Assembly: GCA_030386295.1 (NCBI GenBank)
Contig: JANQAO010000002.1
Location: forward strand, 62,001-126,000
DNA length: 64,000 nt
Origin: Candidatus Persebacteraceae bacterium Df01
GTDB taxonomy: Bacteria > Pseudomonadota > Gammaproteobacteria > Tethybacterales > Persebacteraceae
Reading direction: 5' to 3'
The position numbers and the translations under genes are program-made. Shown here piece by piece: positions 19,702 to 30,839 of this stretch. Every line of letters begins with the position of its first letter. Positions within the stretch are counted from its first letter, which is position 1. Below the pieces are notes generated by a model. The model searched no databases. It was given only the letters and a program-made list of their open reading frames with translations, and was not told where the DNA came from.

Positions 19702-19717
19702 ACAGAAACATATAAAA

Positions 19718-20454
19718 ATGCGCGCCACATTGCAACACAAAAAACGCTGCCCTATTTCAAAGAAAAAGGAGCATCTCTTTTTCTTTGTGATACCCTTGAA
19801 ATAATGGAAATTTTTCCTCTCGAGTCTGTTGATTTAATATTAACGGCAGATTTTCATGCCATTCAGGAAAGCGCGTCTCTGTAAATAAGAGACAATGGGA
19901 CAAAAGCAATGGAATAAAAGAATATTTCAAATTTCACCAGCAATGGATTTCAATGTGCCGCCGAATACTAAAGCCTAGTGGCACACTATGGGTATCGGGA
20001 ACATATCATTCAATTTACTTATGCGGTTTTGCTTTGCAGTAAGGTGACTGGCATATACTTAATGATATTTCTTGATATAAGCCAAATACCGCTTGTTTGC
20101 TACGAGTCACGAAACTCTTATTTGGGCACGAAAAACAAAAATAGCAAAGCATTATTTTGATTACTCATTGATGAAAGAGGGCAATTGGTCAAACGATATT
20201 ATTAAAAAAGATAATAAACAAATGCGGAGTGTTTGGGCTATAAACACTCCTCACTCTAATAAAAAAATACGGAAAACACCCTACACAAAAGCCCATTTCA
20301 TTAATGAACAGAATAATTCTTTCTTCTAGTAGAGAATACGATACTGTGTTAGATTCATTTTGCGGCAGTGCAACAACTGGAGTTTCGATTTTATACAACA
20401 AAAGAATTTTTATAGGTATAGAGAGCGAATGGATGACCTTTCCCTATTATTGAC
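19718..20454 (+). pseudogene. Decayed beta-class DNA methyltransferase of a type II restriction-modification system
   Basis: No single frame is open, but fragments in three frames line up with one beta-class (motif IV before motif I) DNA methyltransferase. In order: an N-terminal piece from the ATG at 19718; LPYFKEKGASLFLCDTLEIM; SVDLILTADF, where LTDPPY is expected; ILKPSGTLWVSGTYHSIY; HETLIWARKTKIAKHYFDYS; VWAINTP; GKHPTQKPISLMNRII; and VLDSFCGSATTGV (motif I), then RIFIGIESEW. At least three frame changes (an A6 run at 19739, near 19882 and near 20270) and several in-frame stops disrupt it. The motif IV residues have also been lost, so this is clearly dead. The DNA is markedly more AT-rich than its neighbours, as expected for an acquired cassette. 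Confidence 0.85.
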
Positions 20455-20805
20455 TATTCGTGGCAGAAACGCACTCCAGAATTGAGTTTTTATGTTGGAG
20501 AACAAAAAATTACTGCTTGTGGCGTTCAAACTGAGGTGGGCGGCGGTTATGAGGGAACTCAAAATATTGTGCTAGTAGAAGCAAAAAATGCAACCTCAAC
20601 CAATACAATCATACGTCAGCTATATTATCCTTATAGACAATGGCAACATTACACGAAAAAAAACGTTTCTATTTTATTTTTTGAGAAAAGGGATGTAGCA
20701 GAAGGGGCTGAATATCATTTATGGGAATTTATTTTCAATAATCCAGAAAAATATAATAGTATTTCATTAAAAAGAGGTTGTCGTTACTTGATAACGTTTA
20801 ATTAG
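20440..20805 (+). pseudogene. C-terminal remnant of a type II restriction endonuclease
   Basis: An open frame of about 120 residues follows the methyltransferase remnant directly and includes YVGEQKITACGVQTEVGGGY, then QNIVLVEAKNAT and IIRQLYYPYRQW. The acidic residue, a spacing of about 12, and E-A-K resemble the catalytic D/E-x(n)-ExK core of PD-(D/E)xK nucleases. The arrangement is one I associate with a family of type II restriction enzymes of about 300 residues. Most of the N-terminal part is absent, so this is a fragment. Its place after a methyltransferase supports the reading. The exact family and site are unknown. Confidence 0.65.
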
Positions 20806-21030: not shown

Positions 21031-22056
21031 ATGAGTAAATCCGCTACCGCCCTTAATTCTGTCATCCATTTGCAGCCACAGATAATGCCATTACCTGCTG
21101 ATTTACCCGATTTTGAGCAAACGATTATTCAGCACAAAGCGCGAATTCGCCGTAATCGCGTACGTATTTTTCAAATTAATATCGGTAAAAAATGTGACCT
21201 GGCTTGCCACCATTGTCACGTGGAGGCCGGCCCAAAAAACCCTGACAATATGGTCGGTGACACTGTTGACCGCGTAATTGAACTGCTGACCAATGCGCCG
21301 GATATGGAAATTTTAGATATTACTGGCGGCGCACCAGAACTTAATCCACATTTTCGTCGGCTTGCCACCGCTGCCCGCAACGCGGGAAAAATCGTATATG
21401 ACCGTTGCAATCTCACCGTGCTTTTTCAACCCGAGCAAGAAGACACGCCTGAATTTTTAGCTGCTAACGGCATCACCATTATCGCGTCTCTGCCATGTTA
21501 TACAGAAGACAATGTAGAAGAACAACGCGGTCGTGGTGTTTTTGATAAAAGTATAAAAGGTCTGCAACGGCTCAATGCTCTCGGCTATGGCAAAGCAGGT
21601 AGCGGTTTGGAATTAAATCTAGTGTACAACCCTGTCGGCGCACACCTACCACCATCGCAAGCACAACTAGAAGCCGATTACCGCGCATATTTAGATAAGC
21701 ACTTCAGCATTGTGTTTAACTCCCTGTTTACTATCACTAACATGCCGATTAAACGCTATCGCCATTATTTAGAACGCGAGGGAATGTTGGAAAACTATAT
21801 GCTCCTCTTAGTAGAAAATTTCAATGCCGCCGCCGCCGCTGGAGTAATGTGTGCTGACACGTTATCGGTAGGATGGGACGGGAAATTATATGATTGTGAC
21901 TTTAACCAAATGCTGGATATTCCGATTAATGGCAACCCAACGACGCTGTGGGACATTCAATCATTAAACGACATTCCCACTGGTATTGCTTTTGATAATC
22001 ATTGCTATGGTTGTACGGCAGGCGCAGGTTCGTCTTGTAGTGGCGCTCTTTTATAA
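21031..22056 (+). CDS. arsS: Radical SAM protein of the ArsS (arsenosugar biosynthesis) family
   Basis: Radical SAM enzyme with the cluster motif CDLACHHC (Cys55, Cys59, Cys62, counted from the ATG at 21031) and a cysteine-rich C-terminal segment, HCYGCTAGAGSSCSGALL. That two-part layout defines the radical SAM/Cys-rich family now called ArsS. Members studied in cyanobacteria and elsewhere transfer the 5'-deoxyadenosyl group to dimethylarsenite on the way to arsenosugars. The C-terminal positions that are selenocysteine in some members read as cysteine here. No arsM methyltransferase is nearby. The next gene is a methylthioadenosine phosphorylase-like enzyme 30 bp downstream, which could act on an adenosyl-arsenic product (inference). 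An upstream TTG start at 20977 cannot be excluded. Confidence 0.85.
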   Translation: MSKSATALNSVIHLQPQIMPLPADLPDFEQTIIQHKARIRRNRVRIFQINIGKKCDLACHHCHVEAGPKNPDNMVGDTVDRVIELLTNAPDMEILDITGGAPELNPHFRRLATAARNAGKIVYDRCNLTVLFQPEQEDTPEFLAANGITIIASLPCYTEDNVEEQRGRGVFDKSIKGLQRLNALGYGKAGSGLELNLVYNPVGAHLPPSQAQLEADYRAYLDKHFSIVFNSLFTITNMPIKRYRHYLEREGMLENYMLLLVENFNAAAAAGVMCADTLSVGWDGKLYDCDFNQMLDIPINGNPTTLWDIQSLNDIPTGIAFDNHCYGCTAGAGSSCSGALL

Positions 22057-22086
22057 ATTTTACATTAAAAATAACGAGGAAGAACT

Positions 22087-22932
22087 ATGCTCGCAATTAT
22101 TGGCGGGTCGGGTTTTTATCAGATGGAAAATTTCGCTGTGGTGGAACGGCGAGATGTAGACACTCCCTACGGCAAACCGTCAGCGCCACTGACCGTGGTG
22201 GAATGTCACGGGCAGCAAGTGTTTTTTTTACCACGTCACGGTGACGCTCATACGCTGTTGCCATCAGACATTAACTATCGCGCTAATATCTGGGCGCTCA
22301 AACAGGCTGGCGCCCGACAAGTGATCGCGGTATCGGCATCCGGCAGTTTGCGGGAAGCATTGCGACCAGGTGATTTTGTAGTACCGTCACAGTATTTTGA
22401 CCACACTAAGGGAACTCGGGCACGCACCTTTTTTGGTGACGGTCTTGTCGGTCACATATCCACCGCTCACCCTGTTTGCCCAGAACTCAGTTCAGCACTA
22501 GCGACGGCGTGTCGTGACTGCGGTCACACAGTACACGAAAATTCCACTTATGCCTGCGTAGAAGGTCCACGCTTAGGCACACGCTGTGAAAGTTTCTTTT
22601 TACGCGACTCGGTTAAAGCCGATATTGTCGGCATGACCAACGTGCCAGAAGTATTTTTAGCACTGGAAGCACAACTATGTTACGCAACGTTGGCTCTTGT
22701 CACTGATTATGATTGTTGGATGGATGATCCTACGCATCATGTGACGGTAGATATTGTCATTCAGCGTTTTAGTGAGAGCATTTCCCGCGCCCGTGATGTT
22801 GTATCGCGCCTACTGGCAGCTCCTCCGCCGGTAAACGAAGAACATCGGCAATCGGCAAGCAAAGCAATACTGACGCCCTCAGCAGTACGGAAGCAACAGC
22901 ACGAAATACTGCTAAAAACATTATTAGTCTAA
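22087..22932 (+). CDS. mtnP: S-methyl-5'-thioadenosine phosphorylase family protein
   Basis: Nucleoside phosphorylase that splits 5'-deoxy-5'-substituted adenosines into adenine and a sugar 1-phosphate. Visible motifs are IIGGSGFYQMEN (phosphate loop), FLPRHGDAHTLLPSDINYRAN, VSASGSL, VGMTNVPEVFLALEAQLCYA and TDYDCW, the last being the purine-binding aspartates of MTAP. EGPRLGTRCESF replaces the more usual EGPRFST-RAES pattern, which may shift 5'-group specificity. Placement directly after arsS suggests it could cleave an arsenical adenosine, with methionine salvage as the conventional alternative. A GAGGAAGAACT ribosome site precedes the ATG. 281 residues, complete. Confidence 0.9.
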   Translation: MLAIIGGSGFYQMENFAVVERRDVDTPYGKPSAPLTVVECHGQQVFFLPRHGDAHTLLPSDINYRANIWALKQAGARQVIAVSASGSLREALRPGDFVVPSQYFDHTKGTRARTFFGDGLVGHISTAHPVCPELSSALATACRDCGHTVHENSTYACVEGPRLGTRCESFFLRDSVKADIVGMTNVPEVFLALEAQLCYATLALVTDYDCWMDDPTHHVTVDIVIQRFSESISRARDVVSRLLAAPPPVNEEHRQSASKAILTPSAVRKQQHEILLKTLLV

Positions 22933-23706: not shown

Positions 23707-25056
23707 CTAGCTCATTTGCCGCATAGTGACAAACTCTTCGGCGCTAGTAGGATGCACTCCAATCGTAGAATCAAAATCTTGCTTCGTAGCTCCCAAGCGA
23801 ATGGCAACAGCCAAGCCTTGGATAATTTCGGCCGCATCATCACCAATCATATGCGCGCCCAGCACTCGTCCATTGTCCGGCGCTGTCACTAATTTCATCA
23901 ATGTTTGCGTTGTGTTTCCAGAGAATCCACTCTTCATGGGGCGAAACACACTTTTATAAATGACGGGGTTAATTCCCGCATCGCGCGCCATTTCCTCGCT
24001 CATACCCACCGTTGCCATTGGCGGACGAGAAAACACCGCCGTAGGAATGTGAGCATAATCCAATTGTGCCGCTGTGTTGCCACAAAAAACGCGGTCAACA
24101 AATACTCCCGCCTCCGCCGTTGCCACCGGCGTAAGCGCTGGAGTATCCAACACATCGCCAATGGCATACAACCAATCGGCGGCAGTTTGATAATCCGCAT
24201 TAACCGGCAGTGTGCCGTTGGCGCGCGGCTTTACCAGCGTGTGTTCCAGTCCGATGTTATCGGTAAGTGGCCGGCGACCAGAAGCAAACATAACCAAATC
24301 CGCTTCCGTATCATCACCGCCAGCGAAGCACACTCGCAAAGCACCGCTCGCTTGTTTAATAATTTTTTGTGGCGCAACACCGGCGCGCACCGTTACACCT
24401 CGGGCAGCGATTTCAGTGGCGATATGCTCACGCAAATCCTCATCAAAACTGCGCAATGGCAAGTCAGCACGAAAACACAGCGAAGTATCAACACCCAGCC
24501 CCGCCAAAATACCAGCAAATTCTAGTGCAATATAACCACCGCCGACTACCACAGCACGACGCGGCAGCTCGGACAGATAAAACATATCATCGGATAATAA
24601 TGCCATATCGGCACCAGGAATATTCAATCGCACAGGCGCACCACCAACCGCCAACAACACTTTATCAGCATGAAATTCAATGTTCCCAGCCCGCACTCGG
24701 CGCTCACCAACAAGCTGCGCTTCTGCCGCAATAAGATGCACACCGGCGCTGGTAAGCAACTTTTCATATACAGCGTTTAGTCGCTGAATTTCACGATTTT
24801 TATTGTCGCGTAAAACGTCCCATTGCATAGTACCGGCAACCGCTTGCGTCCAGCCAAAAGCAGGCGCCGCTGCAGCTTCTTCGGCAAATGAAGCGGCATA
24901 AACAAACAATTTTTTTGGCACACAACCGACATTGACACAAGTGCCACCCAGAGCACCACGTTCGGCAAGTGCGACTCGCGCACCCTGAGCTGCCGCTAAC
25001 CGCGCCGCACGCACGCCACCACTGCCTCCACCAATTACAAACAAATCATATTGCAT
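23707..25056 (-). CDS. gor: Glutathione-disulfide reductase
   Basis: FAD/NADPH flavoprotein that reduces oxidised glutathione. The FAD motif is FVIGGGSGGVRAARLAA (7-23). The redox-active disulfide is Cys40 and Cys45 in GGTCVNVGCVPKKL. VVVGGGYIALEFAGILAGLG is the NADPH-binding motif. The C-terminal HPTSAEEFVTM carries the catalytic His-Glu pair and is typical of glutathione reductase. 449 residues, complete. The pyridine motif is followed by RADLPLRSFDEDLRE, with arginines expected for NADPH. It starts 57 bp from the divergent PfkB-family gene. Confidence 0.93.
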   Translation of the reverse strand: MQYDLFVIGGGSGGVRAARLAAAQGARVALAERGALGGTCVNVGCVPKKLFVYAASFAEEAAAAPAFGWTQAVAGTMQWDVLRDNKNREIQRLNAVYEKLLTSAGVHLIAAEAQLVGERRVRAGNIEFHADKVLLAVGGAPVRLNIPGADMALLSDDMFYLSELPRRAVVVGGGYIALEFAGILAGLGVDTSLCFRADLPLRSFDEDLREHIATEIAARGVTVRAGVAPQKIIKQASGALRVCFAGGDDTEADLVMFASGRRPLTDNIGLEHTLVKPRANGTLPVNADYQTAADWLYAIGDVLDTPALTPVATAEAGVFVDRVFCGNTAAQLDYAHIPTAVFSRPPMATVGMSEEMARDAGINPVIYKSVFRPMKSGFSGNTTQTLMKLVTAPDNGRVLGAHMIGDDAAEIIQGLAVAIRLGATKQDFDSTIGVHPTSAEEFVTMRQMS

Positions 25057-25113: not shown

Positions 25114-26040
25114 ATGCTACCATTAATTACTGGTTCAATCGCTTTTGATTACATTATGCGCGTCAACGGACGCTTCACCGAACGCCTTCCGACGCCGCTT
25201 CATCCCGGATTTAGCGCTGCTTATGCCACACCATCGCTACGCCGCGCCTTTGGCGGCTGTGCCGGTAACATCGCCTACGGGTTGCGACAATTGGGAGATT
25301 CTCCAACAATTATGGGAACAGTAGGCGATGATTTTTCGCCCTACCGAAAGTATCTACGTTCCTTAGATATTGATGATACATATGTTAAAACTATCCCCGA
25401 CATCTTTACTGCACAAGCCTACATTATTAATGACGATGACAATAGTCAATTGATTTTATTTCACGCCGGTGCCGCCAATGAAGCTCACCAACAAAGCATT
25501 GTTGACCTGCCCACACCTCCGCCACTGGCCATTGTCAGCCCCAACGGACGTGAGGGAATGCTGCGTTTTGGTCGAGAACTAGCAGCAGCGCAAACACCGT
25601 TTATTTTTGATCCTGGTCAGGCGATTGACTTATTTTCGGGAGAAGAGTTAATCACGCTGATGGAACAATGTACTTGGGCAATTGTCAATGCCGATGAATT
25701 TGCAGCATTAGAAAAAACTACCGGCATCAGCCGCACTCGAGCCACCGAAATGGTGCAGGCTCTAATCATCACATACGGTGAAAATGGTTCGGAAGTGTTC
25801 GCTAGCGATACGCATTACCACGCCGATGCTGCACGACTGGGAGAAACTCAAGACACTACCGGCTGTGGCGATGCTTATCGCGCCGGCGTCATTCACGGGC
25901 TGTTACGCGACTGGGAGTGGCCACGAATTATCCGTTTTGCTGCCGTGGTGGCTGGCGCTAAGGCCGTGCACAACGGTGGTCAAGGCTATTGCATCACCGC
26001 CGCCGAAGCGACCACGCACAGTGAAAAAATATTTAGCTAA
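25114..26040 (+). CDS. PfkB-family carbohydrate/nucleoside kinase (adenosine kinase-like)
   Basis: Ribokinase-fold sugar or nucleoside kinase of 308 residues. It shows the N-terminal glycine motif AFGGCAGNIAYGLRQLG and the C-terminal DTTGCGDAYRAGVIHGLL, in which the second Asp is the catalytic base and the GxGD loop forms the anion hole. The overall pattern (ITGSIAFDYIMRVNGRFTE at the start) resembles the adenosine kinase-like group found in Betaproteobacteria. Substrate cannot be fixed; adenosine or a sugar are both possible. It is transcribed alone, convergent with dut. Confidence 0.85.
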   Translation: MLPLITGSIAFDYIMRVNGRFTERLPTPLHPGFSAAYATPSLRRAFGGCAGNIAYGLRQLGDSPTIMGTVGDDFSPYRKYLRSLDIDDTYVKTIPDIFTAQAYIINDDDNSQLILFHAGAANEAHQQSIVDLPTPPPLAIVSPNGREGMLRFGRELAAAQTPFIFDPGQAIDLFSGEELITLMEQCTWAIVNADEFAALEKTTGISRTRATEMVQALIITYGENGSEVFASDTHYHADAARLGETQDTTGCGDAYRAGVIHGLLRDWEWPRIIRFAAVVAGAKAVHNGGQGYCITAAEATTHSEKIFS

Positions 26041-28305: not shown

Positions 28306-29521
28306 CTAAGCCGCCGTTGATTCCGCTGAACCGACAGGAATATGTCGACGCCCAACCATCGCGTCAATAACCATATTTTGAAAGCGGTGGACCGGCTCCT
28401 CAAAGTGATAACACATGCGACCACCCGCATAAGGATTCTGCGCAAGTCCTCGTTGCACTTTTTCGCAAATGCTAACATCTTCCAAATTCACCTCATCCCA
28501 AAAACTCAACACTTCATTAATTTCTTTGTTGGAAGCATCTTTGGCACACTCAGGATGGCTGACAAGCCATGCCGTTTCAGTCGTCCGTGACGCCGACACG
28601 GGACGCGCTAAAATGATAAAGGCATGACTCGGCATAACGAAAATAATCACGTTGGGAAACAATCCAAAAAAATAACCGCTAGCCTGTTCCACTGTAGACA
28701 AACCAGACAAATTTTTCATACTAAGCCAGCCAGCGTCATCAGTAGTAGTAACCGGAGAAGTGCAAATTCCACAATACATTCCGTCACCCTGCCACCGATG
28801 GTGGTCAACAATACGCGATGTTTTAGCAAGCCGCGGGTGTACCCACGGCAAATGGTAGTATTCCACGGCATTTTCAACCAACAATTTCCAGTTACACTGA
28901 ATGTCGTATGTGCGCTCTCCCAACACTTCCCATTCGTCCAGCCGGTAATTAGCCAATCGAGTTGATAAATCACCGACAACGTCTTGCAGTGACGGCGCGG
29001 TATCATCCAGACAGGCAAATACCAACATACCCCACTGTGCTACACGCACCGGAAATAGTCCAAATTCCTTTTTGTCAAAATCGCGCAAATGAGACATGTC
29101 ATGCATCTTTATCATCCGACGATTAGCGCCCTTGTCAAAAAGCGGTGTGCCCACGCAGTCGCCACGCAAATTGTATCCCCAGCCGTGATAAGGGCAAATA
29201 ATATGTTTTTTGACAGCGCCACTGGCAGCGCACAGTTGTGTACCGCGATGCCGGCAGACATTGTAAAAACCTCGCAAATCCCCCCCCCTCATCGCGAGTG
29301 ATAATAACCGATTGACCACCAATATCGGTGACTAGAATATCACCGGTATTTTTTACTTGAGTTGCAGGTCCTGCGACCACCCAGTTGCGGCCGAACACCT
29401 GCCGCTGCTCCAAATCAAAAAAATCAGAATCTGTATAGGCATCAGGAATAAGCGTGACAGCAGACTCCACAGACGCACGACTACCAGTGTATGTGTCTTC
29501 ACACAAATAACGGTGAGACAT
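28306..29521 (-). pseudogene. Rieske-type ring-hydroxylating/demethylating oxygenase alpha subunit, frameshifted in a G9 tract
   Basis: Two overlapping frames make one Rieske oxygenase. The N-terminal part starts at the ATG at 29521 (MSHRYLCEDTYTGSRAS) behind a GGAG site. It reads to GQSVIITRDE and then shifts at a run of nine G on the coding strand (29288-29280). Eight G would read DEGGDLRGFYNVCRHRG and give an intact protein of about 404 residues. After the shift come the Rieske cluster motif (CRHRGTQLC, ICPYHGW) and the mononuclear iron motif ENAVEYYHLPWVHPRL. Everything else is open, so this may be a phase-variable gene, a recent mutation or a base-count error. It follows the FAD oxidase gene directly. 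Members related in layout include glycine betaine and stachydrine demethylases, but the substrate is not known. Confidence 0.85.
29280..29288 (-). repeat. Nine-base homopolymer (C9 on plus, G9 on coding strand)
   Basis: Located inside the Rieske oxygenase coding sequence at the exact point where its reading frame breaks. Long G tracts are slippage-prone and underlie phase variation in several pathogens. They are also hard to sequence. Confidence 0.95.
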
Positions 29522-29522
29522 G

Positions 29523-30839
29523 TTAACTCCAAGGAAACGGACTATTAGAAACTGGATGCGTTTGCCCCTCAGCAAAACGAGAAAATCGAAACGGCTTAAG
29601 CAATTGTTGTTCGTCACCCTGCAATTCTGCTGCCACCAAAGCACCCACGCCAATCATTTTATAACCGTGATTAGAATCGGCAATAAAATAAACATTGTCG
29701 CCACCAATACGGTCAAAAACCGGAAAATTATCCGGTGTAAAACAGCCAATGCCACCGGACGGTTCGCGCCGATATTGTGACCATTCAGTGGAAAATCGTT
29801 CCTGACAGTGCGCTAATGCCGACATCCACATTTCAGCAAAATCTTCACCAACAATAAATTCTGGCGAATCGGGACCATAAGGGTCAACCGACACATCAAC
29901 GGCATTTCGAAGTACCTCGTGTGGTGCCGCACCACCTTGCACACCATTAAAGTGAAAATCTGGTTTGTAATAAATCCCCCACGGCTTTTCAGTGATAATG
30001 TGACCATCCACTATGGAGCGCAACGCTGCATCAGAATCTACATGCACCACCGGTGGCAAACCACCGCTCGCATCGGTAAGAAAGTCCGGTGCTACACCCA
30101 GAGTTCCCTCTTGCAAAGACCAGTAGCGCCACATGGCTCTTTCTTCGCTTGTGCCGCCGGCGGCAACTGGTATGCATTGCGGCAATTCCAACATTTTCCA
30201 ACACTCATACACCCAAGGACCGACAGCGATAACGACCTGCTCGCAATCAATATTGCCACGTGTCGTTCTAACCGTTCGCACTGCACCCGACGAATCCGTA
30301 TCAAGACCAACGACGGCAGTATTTTCAATAATCGTTGCGCCGTTAGCACAAGCTTTTTGCGCGAGCCCCTGTATTGATGCCTTATTGTTGGCATACCCCC
30401 CACGCTTTTCGTGTAACACTGAAGTAACACCTTCGGCACGCCAATCGGGATAAATTTGTTTCATGTACTGTCGCGTTTGCTCAGCTCCTTCAATAAATTT
30501 GGACTCATAACCAATATCAGCCTGTTCTTTGGCAATTCCGCGCACTTGCTCACGCATAGATTCCATACTGATTTGTAGATAGCCGACAGAGTGATACGAA
30601 AATGCTTCTGGATCGCTTTCCCAAACACCAACACTGTGCGCCATCAATTCGCGCATAGCAGGTTGATAATAGTTGTTGCGTACTACACCGCAAGCAATGC
30701 CAGAAGCGCCAGCACCGATAGTTGACTTGTCCACAATGACTACGTCAGCGGCAGTCTTGAGGTGCGCTGCCACAGATAAGCCGTGAATACCAGCACCGAT
30801 AATAACAATCCGCGCATGCGCGGGAATTGAATTGTTCAT
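29523..30839 (-). CDS. FAD-dependent amine oxidoreductase (DAO family, sarcosine/dimethylglycine oxidase-like)
   Basis: DAO-family flavoprotein of 438 residues. The N-terminal dinucleotide fold is RIVIIGAGIHGLSVAAHL, followed by VDKSTIGAGASGIACGVVR, where covalent or tight FAD binding occurs in this family. The C-terminal GGIGCFTPDNFPVFDRIG and YFIADSNHGYKMIGVGALVA resemble sarcosine and dimethylglycine oxidases, without the folate-binding domain of the long forms. The stop codon lies one base from the start codon of the downstream Rieske oxygenase, so they form a pair. A plausible but unproven role is stepwise N-demethylation of a methylated amine such as a betaine. No ferredoxin reductase gene is adjacent. 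Confidence 0.85.
   Translation of the reverse strand: MNNSIPAHARIVIIGAGIHGLSVAAHLKTAADVVIVDKSTIGAGASGIACGVVRNNYYQPAMRELMAHSVGVWESDPEAFSYHSVGYLQISMESMREQVRGIAKEQADIGYESKFIEGAEQTRQYMKQIYPDWRAEGVTSVLHEKRGGYANNKASIQGLAQKACANGATIIENTAVVGLDTDSSGAVRTVRTTRGNIDCEQVVIAVGPWVYECWKMLELPQCIPVAAGGTSEERAMWRYWSLQEGTLGVAPDFLTDASGGLPPVVHVDSDAALRSIVDGHIITEKPWGIYYKPDFHFNGVQGGAAPHEVLRNAVDVSVDPYGPDSPEFIVGEDFAEMWMSALAHCQERFSTEWSQYRREPSGGIGCFTPDNFPVFDRIGGDNVYFIADSNHGYKMIGVGALVAAELQGDEQQLLKPFRFSRFAEGQTHPVSNSPFPWS

Follow-up and report, generated by a model that had tools for sequence, protein, structure and literature searches.

A gene for an ArsS-type radical SAM enzyme is followed, 30 bp downstream and on the same strand, by a gene for a phosphorylase of the methylthioadenosine phosphorylase (MTAP) family in the window analyzed here, a stretch of 64,000 nucleotides (G000:C2:62001-126000) from the 1.53-Mb, 98% complete genome G000, and this gene linkage is conserved in each of the four ArsS-encoding genomes from its order. 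The phosphorylase, a distinctive relative of a methionine-recycling enzyme, is a member of a clade named LG here after its signature residues and probably cuts off adenine after ArsS has acted. We judge it fairly probable that the two enzymes catalyze consecutive steps of an arsenosugar-type pathway, whose arsenic substrate and products we infer.

Arsenosugars dominate the arsenic in seaweeds. For the algal arsenolipid route an 'adenosyl nucleosidase' that removes adenine has been proposed, and no gene is named for it in the accessible part of that account (PMC10456119). Within the open-access literature we found no paper tying MTAP to arsenosugars and no gene named for adenine removal. The LG phosphorylase is a concrete and assayable candidate for this step, and a phosphorylase route predicts a sugar-1-phosphate intermediate, not a free sugar. 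In addition, the signature EGPRLG separates LG enzymes from MTAPs in what is now annotated as methionine salvage, and a radical SAM family, called C1 here, becomes a second candidate arsenic-adenosylating family in genomes otherwise scored as lacking ArsS.

ArsS and the adjoining phosphorylase gene

In an NCBIfam profile search ArsS matched TIGR04167 over its full length with 426 bits (cut-off 300), and its Pfam domains are Radical_SAM and DUF3641 (PF12345, 184 bits). Its identity with the ArsS proteins of three relatives from the same order is 58-71%. When 31 ArsS rows were aligned, nine columns contained Cys in at least 85% of the rows; C55, C59, and C62 are three of these nine, and all three Cys of the motif CYGCTAGAGSSC are kept in 31/31 rows. 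With a full-length match far over the cut-off and the nine-Cys pattern, the protein resembles known ArsS enzymes (TIGR04167), a family for which arsenic adenosylation is known from the portion of the published work that is accessible; none of the solved structures matched it by sequence. The phosphorylase scored 293.4 bits with the MTAP model TIGR01694 (cut-off 274.85). Both matches bear out the earlier note, which had read the pair as ArsS next to an MTAP-like phosphorylase and had rightly stated that neither arsM nor an arsenic regulator adjoins it in the window. The features are collected in Table 1.

Table 1. Features of the gene pair in window coordinates, and C1 copies at other loci
Feature	Position	Strand	Basis
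ArsS, radical SAM enzyme, 341 aa, dimethylarsenic adenosylation expected	21031..22056	+	ATG to TAA; TIGR04167, PF12345
CX3CX2C radical SAM cluster motif of ArsS (C55, C59, C62)	21193..21216	+	sequence; ArsS alignment
C-terminal Cys motif of ArsS, CYGCTAGAGSSC	22003..22038	+	sequence; ArsS alignment
GAGGAAG, ribosome-binding-like, ahead of phosphorylase ATG	22076..22082	+	read from sequence
MTAP-family phosphorylase of the LG clade, 281 aa, proposed to act on dimethylarsinoyl-adenosine	22087..22932	+	ATG to TAA; TIGR01694, PF01048, tree
T126 codon of phosphorylase	22462..22464	+	alignment
Altered phosphorylase loop EGPRLGTRCESF, residues 159-170, signature L163-G164	22561..22596	+	alignment
H218 codon of phosphorylase, loop ahead of last large helix	22738..22740	+	alignment; predicted secondary structure
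C1 copy in arsenosugar-type cassette	L081:13592-14536	-	
C1 copy in arsenosugar-type cassette	L220:6297-7229	+	
C1 copy in arsenosugar-type cassette	L264:8522-9436	-	
C1 copy in arsenosugar-type cassette	L265:8461-9384	-	

The pairing was surveyed in a sample of 37 related genomes, 15 of which had ArsS over the cut-off. In the order of the window, ArsS is present in 4/5 genomes (G000-G003) and the MTAP-like gene follows it directly and co-directionally in all four, with gaps of 20-75 bp. The gene beyond the pair varies, being a MarC/NAAT-type transporter on the opposite strand in G000, isocitrate lyase in G001, and agmatine deiminase in G002. In the fifth genome of the order (G004), ArsS and a full MTAP match are both missing, but mtnA is present. 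Judged by the 4/4 genomes of the order and by the linkage to arsenosugar-type genes described below, the pairing exceeds chance. Outside the order, ArsS adjoins the phosphorylase at two further loci (L068 and L101). Counting against an arsenosugar reading, the pairing is missing from 11 of the 15 ArsS genomes of the class sample, in which the MTAP-family match is located on another contig or, in G014, about 14 kb away. Whereas the partner in the window is a phosphorylase, 7 of these 11 genomes have ArsM or a glycosyltransferase no more than 1.5 kb from ArsS; the window also differs from known ArsS systems in that no ArsM was found in its genome.

Upstream of ArsS, window positions 19710-20805 hold a decayed remnant resembling a DNA methyltransferase, with broken frames and the motif FCGSATTG, followed in the same interval by a DUF6997 fragment (104 bits); this remnant is probably an old restriction-modification gene. 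A glutathione reductase (23707-25056) lies near the pair, as does a PfkB-type kinase (25114-26040, +), which reached 98 bits with a nucleoside-kinase-like model (cut-off 450) and 72 bits with a ribose-1-phosphate-kinase-like one, both far under the cut-offs. A functional tie of the pair to the kinase or the reductase was considered. At 28306-30839 (-), a Rieske oxygenase similar to GbcA and an FAD protein like sarcosine oxidase were noted, both far under the cut-offs and possibly acting on methylated amines. In G002, a multi-spanning membrane protein (L227:5599-6999, -) abuts the start of ArsS and looks by eye like an SSS symporter; it had no NCBIfam or Pfam match, was not seen in the other paired genomes, and is a possible importer.

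Phosphorylase clade and its distinguishing residues

The phosphorylase belongs to Pfam family PNP_UDP_1 (PF01048) and does not reach the cut-offs of narrower MTAP models, NF006334 among them (286 vs 382 bits). Its structure model (pLDDT 89.4) had MTAP 4glf as best match (Z 38.5, 1.6 A over 276 residues), and the protein is like the MTAP/MtnP enzymes (TIGR01694; 4glf, 1cb0, 1wta) in fold and, closely, in sequence throughout. However, the canonical loop EGP[RQ]FS[ST]R is absent and EGPRLGTR stands in its place. On account of this loop and of its separate clade, we describe the enzyme as working like MTAP and do not class it as an ordinary MTAP.

When named genome contigs were scanned once with the paired proteins, 80 loci were obtained, comprising 41 of the LG type (EGPRLG or DGPRLG) and 39 of the canonical type (EGP[RQ]FS); the LG loci L066 and L107 apparently come from genomes identical to G003 and G001, as contig numbers and coordinates agree. 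In a tree of 99 rows, LG (99/94), canonical MTAP (99/96), and MTIP (100/100) sequences each fell on one side of a branch, with bootstrap not fully settled. L163 and G164 are invariant in 43/43 LG rows, whereas F and S occupy these positions in 34/34 canonical rows, so that the altered loop does not represent random drift. Thr is found at position 126 in 39/43 LG rows, where canonical MTAPs have F, M, L, or V, and His at position 218 in 42/43. The LG-specific columns include Y103 and V158 besides L163, G164, T126, F171, Q196, D214-P215, and H218, the residues by which the clade of the phosphorylase is set apart from MTAP/MtnP.

The loop had been placed near the 5'-substituent pocket by the earlier note. 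The change itself was confirmed; its placement was not, as L163/G164 align with what we take to be human F177/S178 on the base side, and the altered loop therefore probably faces the base and not the 5'-substituent. The motif TDYDCW, presumably the adenine-binding Asp pair, is retained. T126 flanks H123, which we take to correspond to human H137, and together with H218 it presumably borders the region around human H137' and V231/V233, close to the 5'-substituent. A mainly hydrophobic ribose/methylthioribose site is described in PMC5147791, where H131', V246, and Q289' are named for the Schistosoma enzyme. Judging from the alignment, T126 and H218 would be better candidates than the loop for a change in the 5'-pocket.

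Membership in the MTIP family (NF006599; 3ozb) was also considered and rejected. Although the score with NF006599 (223) equals its cut-off (223) and MTIP likewise has Leu where L163 stands (QGPRLE), the phosphorylase falls outside the MTIP clade (100/100), lacks the QGPRLE and NP motifs, and has Gly and TDYDCW where MTIP has Glu and a VNPAAG-type sequence.

Gene neighborhoods of the LG clade and the C1 family

For the analysis of neighborhoods, ArsS, ArsM, TIGR04282, TIGR04283, and C1 were taken as arsenosugar-type genes and a limit of 6 kb from the phosphorylase was applied. At least one such neighbor was present at 27/41 LG loci but only 1/39 canonical loci (Fisher p = 5e-10, kinship ignored), and in this company the clade differs from MTAP/MtnP. 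Within 6 kb, the 41 LG loci showed C1 20 times, TIGR04283-like genes 21 times, TIGR04282-like genes 22 times, and ArsS and ArsM 3 times each, the C1 and glycosyltransferase profiles having been built from LG neighbors and loci at contig ends having been counted in. At L218, L219, and L226, genes lay masked by antisense frames in a simple gene calling. The family identities rest on the copies of L081, which scored 138 bits with TIGR04282 (cut-off 134), 118 with TIGR04283 (182), and 185 with the ArsM model NF008823 (263). The phosphorylase gene is directly preceded by ArsM in L081, L097, and L098, and ArsM lies inside the cassette in these three and in L220, L264, and L265. Three counts speak against an arsenosugar reading: 14/41 LG loci, some of them at contig ends, have no arsenosugar-type neighbor within 6 kb, an ArsM match above 150 bits occurs in only 9/41 LG genomes, and ArsS is present in 7/41 LG genomes vs 6/9 of the canonical-MTAP genomes examined. 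ArsS itself is not tied to the LG clade.

In an even draw of the phylum (398 genomes), 47 genomes had a match at 1e-90, and the loops read for 30 of the 47 were of the LG type in three (G000, G092, and G425) and of the F-S type in 27. Both G092 and G425 carry cassettes of LG phosphorylase, C1, ArsM, and TIGR04282, with TIGR04283 added in G425. In G162 (L268, 4965-6981), a canonical-type MTAP with the FS loop lies divergently beside a run led by ArsS (ArsS, TVP38/MerA-like fusion, TIGR04283, TIGR04282, DUF3047, ArsM), suggesting that MTAPs may have been recruited to the pathway more than once. Close to arsenosugar-type cassettes, MsrA and MsrB genes over their cut-offs were observed at L081:12085-13172 and L268:6992-8151, and genes that look by eye like MsrB lie near ArsS in L228 and L231; reduction of arsine oxides by Msr proteins is conceivable.

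C1 proteins are radical SAM enzymes of about 315 aa that stay below every NCBIfam cut-off. They have nine conserved cysteines in common with ArsS, in similar order and with the fourth placed differently, and the counterpart of the C-terminal Cys motif of ArsS is HCX3C...GSC. Alignment of the C1 and ArsS profiles gave 99.6% when forced to be global and 98.6% when local, the latter in the N-terminal half. Among the 41 LG genomes, C1 is present in 23, ArsS in 7, and both in none (hypergeometric 0.0014, kinship ignored), and in G067 the genes for C1, TIGR04282, TIGR04283, ArsM, and a TVP38/MerA-like protein are contiguous, without ArsS. The fold comparison returned several kinds of radical SAM enzymes, with BlsE as best match (Z 17.7, 4.1 A over 251 residues); such matches do not discriminate substrate, and the C-terminal Cys region of the C1 model is of low confidence. 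In our reading, C1 probably takes the functional place of ArsS.

Proposed pathway and alternative explanations

In the proposed pathway, ArsS would attach the 5'-deoxyadenosyl moiety of SAM to a dimethylated arsenic compound, as known for ArsS, and the LG phosphorylase would use phosphate to convert the adenosyl-arsenical into adenine and 5-deoxy-5-dimethylarsinoyl-ribose-1-phosphate. Phosphorolysis, unlike hydrolysis, would leave the anomeric carbon activated. Further arsenosugar steps might then be performed by TIGR04282 (activation) and the glycosyltransferase TIGR04283 (transfer to an acceptor), neither of which is linked to the pair. As CofC is a nucleotidyltransferase and the TIGR04282 protein of L081 is CofC-like (30 bits to TIGR03552), TIGR04282 is possibly a nucleotidyltransferase and a route through an NDP-sugar is conceivable. 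In G000, methylated arsenic would have an extracellular source or be made by an unrecognized methyltransferase, since ArsM was not detected there: the best match to NF008823 had 40.5 bits, at the level of UbiE-like proteins, and the ArsM profile A3, which detects the canonical ArsM of G005, found nothing at 1e-10. ArsM was not found in any of G000-G004, which counts against the arsenosugar reading, and C1 was not found in G000. A fuller version of the scheme, offered tentatively and as possible rather than probable, holds that the LG clade is dedicated to phosphorolytic adenine removal, that the arsenosugar-1-phosphate passes through a TIGR04282 nucleotidyltransferase to TIGR04283, that adenosylation is due to ArsS or the nine-Cys C1, and that lineages like that of the window have dropped ArsM and use methylated arsenic made by others.

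That the phosphorylase is an ordinary MTAP of methionine salvage and a chance neighbor of ArsS appears very improbable, even if TIGR01694 names MTAP and the nearest solved structures are MTAPs. It forms a separate clade, the pair is kept in 4/4 genomes, and mtnA, needed for the next metabolic step, is missing from all four paired genomes (0 matches to TIGR00512 in G000-G003) and present in G004, where ArsS and an LG phosphorylase are both missing. Because G000 has no mtnA and no second PF01048 protein, ordinary methionine salvage is unlikely in this genome and was rejected; no spermidine synthase (speE) over the cut-off was found in G000 either, the best match having 69 bits inside a 1098-aa frame. 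The same gene content bears on a housekeeping role, in which the enzyme would clear 5'-deoxyadenosine and MTA, salvage adenine, and lie beside ArsS as ArsS sheds 5'-deoxyadenosine. This explanation, which we consider rather unlikely, agrees with the phosphorylase being the only PF01048 protein of G000, with its score over the MTAP cut-off, and with its MTAP-like fold and adenine-side residues, and the missing mtnA would leave clearance at most, not salvage; yet it does not explain the clade-wide substitutions or why LG phosphorylases elsewhere keep company with ArsM and TIGR04282/TIGR04283. As the sole PF01048 enzyme, the phosphorylase of an arsenosugar-type pathway may also clear 5'-deoxyadenosine or MTA.

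It is also conceivable, if improbable, that LG cassettes, after adenosylation by C1 or ArsS, build a 5-deoxy-5-substituted ribose of sulfur, selenium, or another element, arsenic being the use of one lineage. This would fit the 32/41 LG genomes, and the genome of the window, that lack an ArsM match above 150 bits, but ArsM lies within the cassette at the six loci named above, and the activity known for the ArsS family, as far as the accessible account goes, is on arsenic. We retain consecutive action of ArsS and the LG phosphorylase in an arsenosugar-type pathway as the preferred reading. The earlier note had interpreted the pair in this way and had named as evidence to the contrary a full methionine salvage pathway with no other mtnP, a genome free of arsM, and a pairing that is not conserved. 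Of these three, the first and the last were not observed, as mtnA is missing and the pairing is conserved, and the second was, the genome search for arsM having found none. Its interpretation is supported in part: it gains from the conserved pairing and from the repeated link of the clade to ArsM and arsenosugar-type glycosyltransferases and loses the loop as a change of the 5'-pocket.

Two genes resembling those of the arsenosugar biosynthesis glycosyltransferases TIGR04282 and TIGR04283 are adjacent in G000 (C3:257803-258980), which speaks for the preferred reading, but they are unlinked to ArsS and slightly under the cut-offs (TIGR04283, 150 bits vs 182; TIGR04282, 132 vs 134), which speaks against it. 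A similar pair is present in G002, G003, and G004, not in G001, and because G004 has it without ArsS or an LG phosphorylase, the pair is no proof of arsenosugar synthesis. In G000 it is followed by a gene for phosphonoacetaldehyde hydrolase (TIGR01422, 270 bits, cut-off 220), the pair and this gene together occupying L216:9777-11986 on C3.
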